From contig RDOE01000018.1 of assembly GCA_011364975.1 (NCBI GenBank), positions 1 through 47,231 on the forward strand: a stretch of DNA of 47,231 nucleotides, read 5' to 3'. Origin of the DNA: Promethearchaeota archaeon. Lineage in GTDB: Archaea; Asgardarchaeota; Lokiarchaeia; Sigyniarchaeales; SOKP01. The notes beneath the pieces are model-generated. The model was not told where the DNA came from, did no database searches, and saw only the letters and a list, made by a program, of their open reading frames with translations. Below are positions 17,000-25,743 of the stretch, piece after piece. The translations under genes were made by a program, and so were the position numbers. Within the stretch, counting starts at the first letter, position 1. Each line of letters begins with the position of its first letter.

Positions 17000-17521
17000 T
17001 TAATAGGTTTGACCTTCTAAGATTTTTTTCGTTAACATATCAAAAGCTTTAGCAACATTTTCACCAGATTTACTTGATATTCGTAAATAGTCGAAAAATC
17101 CAAATTCGTCCTTGAATGAAAGCGCATATTCATCATTCACCATTAATTCATTCTCTAAATCATTTTTGGTTCCCAAAAATAAAATTGGTAAATTTGGGTC
17201 ATTCTTTCTCACGAGTTTAACCCATTGGTCTAAATTTTCTAAGGTTATAGGTCGAGTCAAGTCAAACATCAATAAAGCTCCCTTTGCGCCTAACACATAG
17301 CTTTCTAACAAAAATCTAAACCGTTCTTGACCACCAAAATCCCATAGTTGTAATGTGCAATGAAGGCTGTCAATGTTTACCTCTTTTAAAAAAAATTCAA
17401 CTCCTATCGTCATGCGTGTGTCAGCACTGAATCTTCCTTCCACATAACGATGGAGAAGGGTAGTCTTACCGACGCCTCCCTCTCCTGCTGTAAGGATTTT
17501 TAGTATAAATTTCTTGGGCAT
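17000..17521 (-). CDS. Ras-like small GTPase (paralogue)
   Basis: This is a 173-residue G-domain protein, the same length as the GTPase at 15902 and clearly a paralogue. It has GEGGVGKTTLLHRYVEG at the P-loop, TIGVEF in switch I, WDFGGQERFRFLLE in switch II, TKND at the guanine-specificity motif and SSK at G5. There is no lipidation Cys. It is probably the first gene of a three-gene group (GTPase, PIN, GTPase). The 371-bp gap upstream holds its promoter. Confidence 0.95.
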   Translation of the reverse strand: MPKKFILKILTAGEGGVGKTTLLHRYVEGRFSADTRMTIGVEFFLKEVNIDSLHCTLQLWDFGGQERFRFLLESYVLGAKGALLMFDLTRPITLENLDQWVKLVRKNDPNLPILFLGTKNDLENELMVNDEYALSFKDEFGFFDYLRISSKSGENVAKAFDMLTKKILEGQTY

Positions 17522-21131: not shown

Positions 21132-21158
21132 TCACTTTAACCACATTACTAAAAAGCG

Positions 21159-21161
21159 ATT
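21159..21161 (-). other. 3' bulge of the BHB-like splice motif
   Basis: The bulge is AAU, 3 nt, between the 4-bp CCGG/CCGG helix and the outer stem CGCTTT. Cleavage after its second base (between 21160 and 21159) would end the 5S body at ...CCGGAA. Confidence 0.55.
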
Positions 21162-21308
21162 CCGGGTTCGGATGGGACCGGGTACTATCCTGTATCGCCA
21201 TGACCGTAGCCGAAGCTACAGTTTACAAGTTCCCACAAATCGCAAATCTGCAGTGCGAAGATATAATAGCACTTTTGCAGTACTATTTGCAACGCAAAAC
21301 AGTTTAAC
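21160..21308 (-). rRNA. rrf: 5S rRNA, circularly permuted (predicted 149-nt circle)
   Basis: The identity rests on sequence and structure. Loop C plus helix III read CCCATCCGAACCCGGAA and, after joining, GTTAAAC, the near-universal 5S core. Helix I is GCTACGGT (21203-21210) with ACTGTAGC (21215-21222), one G-U pair. Helix II is GCGATACAG (21190-21198) with CTGTTTTGC (21294-21302), 8 of 9 paired. Helix III is CCGG (21178-21181) with CCGG (21162-21165), followed by the two bulged As. Helix V has GCAAAT (21285-21290) with ATTTGC (21242-21247), and helix IV has AGTGC with GCACT around a 12-nt loop. AGTACTGC sits at the loop E position. Without the TTCG it is 145 nt, longer than the usual 115-125. 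The extra lies mostly at 21223-21241, between helix V and helix I. Confidence 0.85.
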
Positions 21309-21310
21309 TT
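21308..21310 (-). other. 5' bulge of the BHB-like splice motif
   Basis: The bulge is AA(G) on the opposite strand, between CCGG (21311-21314) and GTT, which can pair with AAC at 21166-21168. Cleavage after its second base (between 21309 and 21308) would start the 5S body at GUUAAAC. It is a 2-nt bulge if G pairs and 3-nt if not. Confidence 0.55.
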
Positions 21311-21365
21311 CCGGCGCTTTAGCGTTTCGCTACAGTAAATGTGGTTAACATTTAATTACCAACCA

Positions 21366-21373
21366 TTTTATAA
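21366..21373 (-). promoter_or_regulatory. TATA box of the permuted 5S rRNA gene
   Basis: The minus strand reads TTATAAAA, one of the best TATA boxes in the window. Its centre is about 22-27 nt before 21342-21348, so transcription should start at the outer edge of the terminal stem. The gap between this gene and the peptidase gene (21349-21533) holds nothing else. Confidence 0.7.
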
Positions 21374-21533
21374 GCTCGGCTATTTTCTTCTGAAATGCTT
21401 TACTTATATGGTTATGAGTAATTAGAATAGTTAAAAGTACTAATTAAACTTTTTCATAATGATCAATTAAATTTAAAAAGCATGGTTTTAAATGGACTAA
21501 CATTATTACTATGAAATTAGAACCCTCAAATAA

Positions 21534-24180: not shown

Positions 24181-25743
24181 ATGGCGCACAATTTAGAAGA
24201 TGTAGCAGGTATCGGAAAAGCAACTGCAGACAGATTAAGAGCAGCTGGAATTGACACTGTAGAAAAGTTGGCGAACTCAGATCCAGATATGTTAATCGAC
24301 CTTAAAATTAAGGGTGTCGGAGAATCAACTGCCCTTAAGTACATTAGTAATGCCAAAACACTTCTTGAAGATATACAAGACGCTATTCCATCTGATACCA
24401 AACAAGAAACAAAAATACCTAAGGAACCTGAGAAACAAAAAGTAGCTAAAAAACCAGATGAAGGGAAACTTAAATCCTTAAAGGAATTTCTTAAAAAACA
24501 AGCAGAATGCAATATTGGGTTAGTAGGGCACGTAGACCACGGCAAAACGACCCTGGTAAAAGCTTTGACTGGAGATTGGACAGATAGACATTCTGAAGAG
24601 CAAGAAAGAGGTATCTCAATAAAGCTTGGTTATTCAAATGCAACAATTCTTTATTGTTCTGTATGTGATGAATATTTAACTTCATATATGGCAGAGAAAG
24701 AAAAAGAACAAGGTAGACCTAAATTTACATGCCCAAAATGTTTAGAAACCTTAGAATTCAAAAGAAATATCTCATTTGTGGATGCTCCGGGACATGAAAT
24801 TTTAATGGCAACTATGCTTAGTGGTGCCTCATTAATGGACGGAGCTTGTTTGTTGATCGCAGCTGATGAAAAATGTCCTCAACCACAAACGAGAGAACAT
24901 TTGGCAGCATTAAACATCGCAGGAATTAAAAAAGTAATTATAATCCAAAATAAGATTGATGCGGTTTCTAAAGAACAAGCACAAGAGAATTATATGCAAA
25001 TAAAAAGATTCATAAAAGGAACTGTTGCTGAAAATGCTCCAATTATACCTGTTTCTGCTGTTTTTGGTGCAAACATAAACTTAGTAGTCCGAGCTTTTGA
25101 AGAGGTAATCCCAACTCCAGAATTAAAAGATAAGGAAGAATTTCAGTTTTTAGTAGCACGTTCTTTTGATATTAATCGTCCCGGTACAGAGATAGAGAAA
25201 TTGAAGGGGGGTGTTATTGGTGGTTCCGTATTAAAAGGGAAAATAAAAGTTGGTGAAGAGATAGAAATAAAACCTGGTTTAAGAACCAAAAATTTATACT
25301 CTCCAATCAAAACCAAAGTAATAAGCATCAGTCAGGGAAATAATTTACTTGAAGAAGCTAACCCTGGTGGTCTAATAGGCTTGGGAACAAAGCTAGACCC
25401 TGCGTTGACTAAAGGAGACTCTTTAATTGGTCATTTAGTTGGAAAACCTGATACTCTACCTCAAATTATATCTGAAGTTGAGCTTGAAGTTCATTTACTT
25501 GATAGAGTAATAGGAGCCGAGGTACAAATGAAAGTGCAACAATTAAAACATAATGAAAAATTATTGTTGGTCATAGGAACTGAAAAAACAGCTGGTACTG
25601 TAACTAAGATACTAAAAAATTCCTTTATCTTAAGTTTAAATCCTCCTATTTGCCCTCCAGAAAATTTTATATTTGCCATCTCTAGAATTATAAATCGGCG
25701 TTATCGATTAATCGGGTATGGTAAAATACTCAACCATAAATAG
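24181..25743 (+). CDS. eif2g: Translation initiation factor aIF2-gamma with N-terminal HhH domain
   Basis: This is a 520-residue protein. Residues 108-520 are a complete aIF2-gamma. G1 is GHVDHGKTT (116-124), and the G2 region is ERGISIKLGYS. The zinc knuckle is C159/C162 with C184/C187. G3 is DAPGHE (201-206), G4 is NKID, and domains II and III follow. It delivers initiator Met-tRNA to the small subunit as part of the aIF2 trimer. Residues 4-62 are an extra helix-hairpin-helix domain very like the N-terminal domain of RadA (LEDVAGIGKATADRLRAAG, then IKGVGESTALKYI). A charged linker (64-107) joins the two. Normal aIF2-gamma is about 410 residues with no such domain. The reading frame is continuous, and the ATG at 24181 is the only sensible start. 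Confidence 0.95.
   Translation: MAHNLEDVAGIGKATADRLRAAGIDTVEKLANSDPDMLIDLKIKGVGESTALKYISNAKTLLEDIQDAIPSDTKQETKIPKEPEKQKVAKKPDEGKLKSLKEFLKKQAECNIGLVGHVDHGKTTLVKALTGDWTDRHSEEQERGISIKLGYSNATILYCSVCDEYLTSYMAEKEKEQGRPKFTCPKCLETLEFKRNISFVDAPGHEILMATMLSGASLMDGACLLIAADEKCPQPQTREHLAALNIAGIKKVIIIQNKIDAVSKEQAQENYMQIKRFIKGTVAENAPIIPVSAVFGANINLVVRAFEEVIPTPELKDKEEFQFLVARSFDINRPGTEIEKLKGGVIGGSVLKGKIKVGEEIEIKPGLRTKNLYSPIKTKVISISQGNNLLEEANPGGLIGLGTKLDPALTKGDSLIGHLVGKPDTLPQIISEVELEVHLLDRVIGAEVQMKVQQLKHNEKLLLVIGTEKTAGTVTKILKNSFILSLNPPICPPENFIFAISRIINRRYRLIGYGKILNHK

Follow-up and report, generated by a model that had tools for sequence, protein, structure and literature searches.

5S rRNA is among the most conserved RNAs, and its ends are paired in helix I. 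In archaea, the SRP RNA of Thermoproteus (T. tenax) is known to be permuted, to be cleaved by the splicing endonuclease, and to form a circle (PMC4731332). For rRNA, circles of 23S and 16S transcripts have been observed in Asgard archaea (PMC12918454), and the same study stated that 5S rRNA is not circularized in the archaea studied there. A permuted 5S rRNA with joined normal ends is reported to occur in mitochondria of brown algae and their relatives (Valach et al. 2014; Rfam mtPerm-5S). For this RNA, which is organellar and eukaryotic, no involvement of a bulge-helix-bulge (BHB) or of splicing machinery of the archaeal kind is known.

A rotated 5S rRNA gene

We analyzed the window, that is, the whole stretch of 47,231 nt, and found on its minus strand, from 21308 to 21160, a circularly permuted 5S rRNA gene in which the 3' half precedes the 5' half. 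The features of the locus, in the order in which they would be transcribed, are as follows.

21366..21374, minus strand: TATA-box-like element CTTATAAAA, read from the sequence; its function is untested.
21334..21348, minus strand: 5' strand of the outer leader/trailer stem, TTAACCACATTTACT, pairing with 21137-21150 in the minimum-energy precursor fold.
21320..21332, minus strand: leader hairpin TAGCG-AAA-CGCTA, an inverted repeat in the sequence that is absent from the lowest-energy fold.
21315..21319, minus strand: 5' strand of the BHB outer helix, AAGCG, with 5/5 pairs to 21154-21158.
21311..21314, minus strand: 5' strand of the central 4-bp BHB helix, CCGG, with 4/4 pairs to 21162-21165; it copies the helix III 5' strand.
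21308..21310, minus strand: leader bulge AA^G, with the predicted cut between 21309 and 21308; the match to rotated model R1 begins at 21308.
21215..21308, minus strand: 5S 3' half, GTTAAAC ... ACTGTAGC, first in the gene (R1 match).
21247..21277 (approximate), minus strand: insertion of ~30 nt in the helix IV arm (R1 match).
21203..21222, minus strand: helix I closed by TTCG, with sealed native termini (sequence, cap scan, covariation, and shuffles).
21160..21210, minus strand: 5S 5' half, GCTACGGTCATGG ... CCGAACCCGGAA, last in the gene (Rfam and R1 matches).
21162..21165, minus strand: 3' strand of the central BHB helix, CCGG, which would become the helix III 3' strand after excision (BHB pairing and covariation).
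21159..21161, minus strand: trailer bulge AA^T, with the predicted cut between 21160 and 21159; the R1 match stops at 21160.
21154..21158, minus strand: 3' strand of the BHB outer helix, CGCTT (BHB pairing).
21137..21150, minus strand: 3' strand of the outer leader/trailer stem, AGTAATGTGGTTAA (minimum-energy precursor fold).

The rotated order is shown by a covariance model, R1, for which 15 canonical 5S genes from other families of the phylum were rotated in silico at the GGAA/GTTAA junction, given a neutral GAAA linker, and aligned (alignment A1). Since R1 was built without any sequence from the window, the rotation test is free of circular reasoning. R1 matched 21308-21160 of the minus strand from end to end (model positions 1-123 of 123; 52.0 bits; E 4.6e-11) and was the sole match in the window. 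The unrotated Rfam 5S model (RF00001) gave no collinear match above its gathering score of 38 at this gene, only a half match of 21.7 bits in the part with the 5' half, which is the expected outcome for a permuted gene. An Rfam scan of the 300-base region with E values up to 10 returned RF00001 only and no match to mtPerm-5S.

The gene has the complete set of 5S helices and the conserved positions in rotated order, as judged from the full-length R1 match and from the covariation of helices I to V. It also has the hallmarks of a circularly permuted RNA gene: the 3' half comes first, the native ends are joined, and the new ends lie inside a helix/loop. Over the whole structure, an alignment of 68 sequences yielded a covariation score of 0.793, versus 0.220 when shuffled and at most 0.154 when slid; the alignment was fitted to the model, which favors the structure, and the slid and shuffled controls were far lower nonetheless. 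A scan of the genome to which the window belongs (3.74 Mb, 99.25% complete) with the Rfam 5S model revealed no other 5S gene, and a full archaeal 23S gene is present on another contig. The predicted mature 5S has 149 nt, versus about 120 nt in most relatives, because of the insertion of ~30 nt in the helix IV arm. A comparable expansion of this arm was seen in one other locus (L007, 150 nt).

Sealed native ends and the motif at the new ends

A preliminary description, made from the sequence alone, had claimed that a C(UUCG)G-capped helix I seals the native 5S termini at 21203-21222. Both parts held, the second at the level of the gene. It was silent on the strand: the 5S gene lies on the minus strand, where 21222-21203 reads ACTGTAGC-TTCG-GCTACGGT, corresponding to ACCGTAGC CGAA GCTACAGT at 21203-21222 of the plus strand. 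The hairpin has eight pairs, one of them G-T, and a C(TTCG)G closure. A TTCG loop on an 8-bp stem occurs only once in the whole window, at this position; dinucleotide shuffles gave a mean of 0.19 per window and at least one such hairpin in 36 of 200 cases. With this expectation by chance, we rejected the hairpin as a remarkable feature by itself; its meaning comes from its surroundings, a rotated 5S gene. What goes beyond chance is its place between the 5S 3' half and the 5' half, together with its conservation, with compensatory changes, across the phylum. In the 68-sequence alignment, none of the seven helix I pairs is invariant, six have changed on both sides, and 99.6% of the cells are paired. 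At the level of the gene, the native ends are thus shown to be fused through a tetraloop while helix I is kept by compensatory changes, both in this genome, where no other 5S gene exists, and in about 100 of the 195 genomes of the phylum.

Evaluation of the cap in a hairpin scan of 60 loci revealed TTCG in 27, TGCG in 6, TACG in 5, CTCG in 3, and other sequences in the rest, so that the cap is mostly TTCG/TNCG and mostly 4 nt long. The C(TTCG)G closing pair of the window is not universal: A-T or G-C takes its place in many relatives. Because the cap varies and many closing pairs are other than C-G, the conserved feature is strand continuity and not the special stability of cUUCGg. For the same reason, the preliminary wording of a "designed" replacement of the ends did not hold; "evolved" fits, as the cap sequence varies. 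Three loci (L021, L023, and L024) carry a long extension of the helix I cap in place of an expanded helix IV arm.

The more telling part of the locus, overlooked in that description along with the phylum-wide spread, is a splicing motif at the new ends. The leader AAGCG-CCGG-[AAG] and the trailer CCGG-[AAT]-CGCTT form a BHB within the outer stem TTAACCACATTTACT/AGTAATGTGGTTAA, with a 4-bp helix (4/4 central pairs), two 3-nt bulges, and outer pairing (5/5). The new ends, at helix III / loop C, fall exactly at this BHB. If each bulge is cut behind its second base and the products are joined, ...CCGAACCCGGAA would come to lie directly before GTTAAAC..., which is the exact 5S consensus. As the leader CCGG is a copy of the helix III 5' strand, the precursor pairs it with the strand that would pair inside the 5S after excision.

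A strict BHB criterion, requiring all four central pairs, four or more of the five outer pairs, and 3-nt bulges, was passed by 46/60 loci, in 14/18 families, compared with 131 of 2,990 control combinations (4.4%) in which leader and trailer came from different families. Most of the 14 failing loci missed by one or two pairs; the clear failures were L104 and L071 (2/4 central and 3/5 outer pairs) and L101 (zero outer pairs). Several positions of the outer helix use four to six standard pair types, i.e., the outer stem covaries, and the leader element covaries with its partner in relatives, e.g., CTGG with CCAG. The BHB geometry, its covariation, and the consensus at the junction are thus shown at the level of the gene. 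Family relatives also keep a TGTGG-type outer stem, and many family loci have a comparable inverted repeat in the leader.

Spread in Asgard archaea and other break sites

We scanned 195 genomes of the phylum with R1 and found 94 with a score of at least 49 bits, covering 19 families, including the window's own family (f1) and families f4 to f6 of the same class; canonical 5S genes score lower with R1 than permuted ones. The Rfam 5S model gave canonical matches above its cut-off in 61 of these genomes, mainly in families f7, f2, f12, f14, and f18. Only three genomes (G041, G193, and G122) were in both lists, and a fourth (G022) combined a canonical match with a weaker R1 match (43.0 bits). The canonical matches in G022, G041, and G193 were read from the sequence as bacterial 5S on contaminant contigs, because these genomes also carry the permuted gene, and the match in G122 (38 bits) overlaps the permuted gene. 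The tally is 94 genomes with this permutant, 6 with a second permutant, and about 57 with a normal gene. Named records carrying the permuted gene include Candidatus Lokiarchaeota/Lokiarchaeia, Candidatus Jordarchaeia, Candidatus Jordarchaeum, and "Asgard group archaeon", which identifies the phylum as Promethearchaeota, and the window is assigned to an archaeon of the Lokiarchaeota type; the pattern scan behind these names is not a census. Its candidates outside Asgard (records of bacteria, Bathyarchaeota, Methanosarcinaceae, and Euryarchaeota) were rejected as canonical 5S or chance matches, with R1 scores below 38 bits. None of the 299 genomes from two other archaeal phyla (151 and 148) reached 49 bits with R1; the maxima, 41.9 and 37.9 bits, are at the level of the canonical genes in f7. 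The description of two Asgard metagenome-assembled genomes with a 5S gene (PMC9723677) is consistent with a mixed distribution.

The second permutant has its opening in the 5' strand of helix III and was found in six genomes (G014, G027, G032, G034, G038, and G046) from two genera of f1. A model rotated at this second site, R2, scores 60 to 64 bits on them, and R1 scores below 37 there. The BHB of the second permutant consists of CTGG-[AAC] with CCGG-[TCA], and cutting and joining would bring ACCCGGTC next to CCATCCGAAC, again the 5S consensus (five of the six loci could be parsed). Both permutant types occur in genus g8. Two distinct break sites, each restoring the consensus, strongly support excision and joining, which we consider the probable course. 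One locus of family f24 (L260; G114:C30:2600-3450) may have a third site of opening, located at the loop C tip, with ends near CCCATTCGAA and CACAGAAGATAAG.

Some loci show other arrangements. L266 (G208:C510) contains a tandem pair of permuted 5S genes with a spacing of about 160 nt; by eye, each has a leader/trailer pairing of its own. The permuted genes L261 and L262 have a loop C insertion of about 30 nt between CATCCGAA and GAACCCAGAA. In L264 (G138:C1:1399500-1401100), from a family in the same order as the window's genome, three canonical 5S genes form direct tandem repeats of about 375 bp. Elsewhere in the window, as judged from translations alone, a small Ras-like GTPase is encoded at 17000-17521 (minus strand), and a GTPase resembling translation initiation factor 2 gamma, with a helix-hairpin-helix region at its N terminus, at 24181-25743 (plus strand).

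Proposed maturation and comparison with known systems

A host that processes an RNA at a BHB requires genes for the splicing endonuclease and RtcB, and both are shown to be present in the window's genome: one RtcB gene (553.7 bits) and two proteins with a splicing-endonuclease catalytic domain (102.9 and 66 bits). Upstream of the gene, the TTA of a TATA-like box begins 25 nt before the start of the outer stem, and similar A/T-rich boxes lie at about the same position in many family loci. This box would fit independent transcription of the 5S gene, a possibility that is inferred from the sequence alone, as the function of the box is untested.

We propose that the splicing endonuclease excises the 5S and that RtcB circularizes it. 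We consider this likely; cleavage, ligation, the circle, and its use in the ribosome are all inferred, as there are no transcript data. The transcript would run from the leader through the 5S 3' half, the TTCG loop of helix I, and the 5' half to the trailer. Leader and trailer would pair and form the BHB exactly at the new ends (helix III / loop C), and the endonuclease would cut both bulges, at CCGGAA^G in the leader and at CCGGAA^T in the trailer. RtcB would then ligate the excised piece, joining ...CCGAACCCGGAA to GTTAAAC..., into a covalently closed 5S circle of 149 nt; the freed helix III 3' strand would pair with its 5S partner, and the circle would join the large subunit with its native termini uncut. 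The preliminary claim that no cut is needed at the native termini is therefore only partly upheld: it is a sound inference, because the BHB at the new ends would yield a complete 5S, and it is not shown, since, in the absence of RNA data, cleavage of the cap at a later step remains possible.

Three other readings of the locus were weighed. The gene could be a rearranged pseudogene or an assembly artefact, with a normal 5S gene having been missed; the window does come from a metagenome assembly of 200 contigs with 6% estimated contamination. However, the same rotated order, with compensatory changes, recurs in 94 genomes (this one included) of 19 families, some of them assembled as a single contig, and no canonical 5S was found in the window's own genome, so that this reading is all but excluded. 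It is also conceivable that the BHB is cut without ligation, so that the mature 5S is a linear, permuted RNA that ends in loop C and keeps helix I sealed. Such a course would leave the anatomy of the gene unchanged, since endonuclease cleavage alone requires the BHB, and permuted 5S RNAs are known from organelles (Valach et al. 2014, cited in PMC11528492). Against it, the cut sites of both permutants rejoin to the exact, uninterrupted 5S consensus, an RtcB gene is present, and in archaea ligation is the normal sequel to excision at a BHB (PMC4731332); we hold a lack of ligation to be very improbable.

We give as little credit to a circle that is reopened in the helix I cap to produce a 5S with near-normal ends, in the manner of the Pyrococcus furiosus 23S rRNA (helix 98 loss). 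In its favor, a circular rRNA intermediate that is relinearized is known (PMC7758197), the cap sequence varies, and a later cut, e.g., in the cap, would leave no trace in the DNA. However, the cap, mostly 4 nt long, is short, has mostly a TTCG/TNCG sequence, and sits on a fully paired and covarying stem; selection for a good tetraloop would be easier to understand if the loop were retained.

Returning to excision followed by circularization, a bolder reading is that a covalently closed 5S serves in the working ribosomes of a large part of the Asgard phylum and that the opening site has shifted in evolution, among two or perhaps three sites; taken as a joint claim, we hold it to be more likely than not. 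Maintenance by the tRNA-splicing machinery would, on this reading, have freed the 5S gene from its native ends. If it is true, then, with the circular 23S rRNA reported in archaea including Asgard, some large subunits would lack any free rRNA ends.

A major archaeal group, comprising the closest known relatives of eukaryotes, has a rotated 5S gene whose product apparently depends on the tRNA-splicing machinery. A permuted gene would account for the failure to predict 5S genes in closed Heimdallarchaeum genomes (PMC8813620), for annotation tools calling the 5S missing, and for Asgard genomes failing genome-quality criteria that require a 5S gene; rotated covariance models recover the missing genes. 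Our search of the open-access literature found no "circular 5S rRNA" or "permuted 5S" and no permuted Asgard 5S; preprints and most subscription papers were not covered, and prior publication is possible. Within the limits of this search, the finding is probably of a known kind, the BHB-circularized permuted RNAs, and apparently new as the 5S rRNA of cellular ribosomes.

Like the Asgard 5S, the T. tenax SRP RNA is a universal archaeal RNA that was overlooked by annotation due to its permuted gene (PMC4731332). It likewise has its new ends at a loop, a BHB formed by leader and trailer, and a TATA box shortly upstream, and its loop is restored by circularization via the splicing endonuclease and probably RtcB, a step that is inferred for the Asgard 5S. 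Its circle was shown by RNA-seq and in vitro cleavage, whereas that of the Asgard 5S is inferred only. The Asgard case differs in that the RNA is ribosomal, the permutation is spread over roughly half of the Asgard genomes sampled, and there are two or more break sites. The 16S and 23S pre-rRNAs (PMC7758197, PMC12918454) are likewise cleaved at a BHB and circularized in archaea, as inferred here for the 5S, which would extend BHB circularization to a third rRNA. However, those rRNAs come from collinear genes, with the circle as an intermediate or variant form, whereas the 5S gene is permuted and needs circularization to give a complete 5S. Permuted tRNA genes with a BHB (PMC3218864, PMC3978253) share the 3' half placed before the 5' half and the processing at the BHB, but there the circle is a mere intermediate and is opened again at the native ends, which in the Asgard 5S are a sealed tetraloop. 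In topology, the Asgard 5S matches CH84, an engineered E. coli 23S-cp5S hybrid in which a 4-nt connector links the native ends and the 5S is opened in loop C (PMC7283268). That hybrid is man-made and fused into the 23S rRNA, whereas the Asgard 5S gene, free-standing and far from the 23S gene, is a natural counterpart to a 5S opened at loop C.
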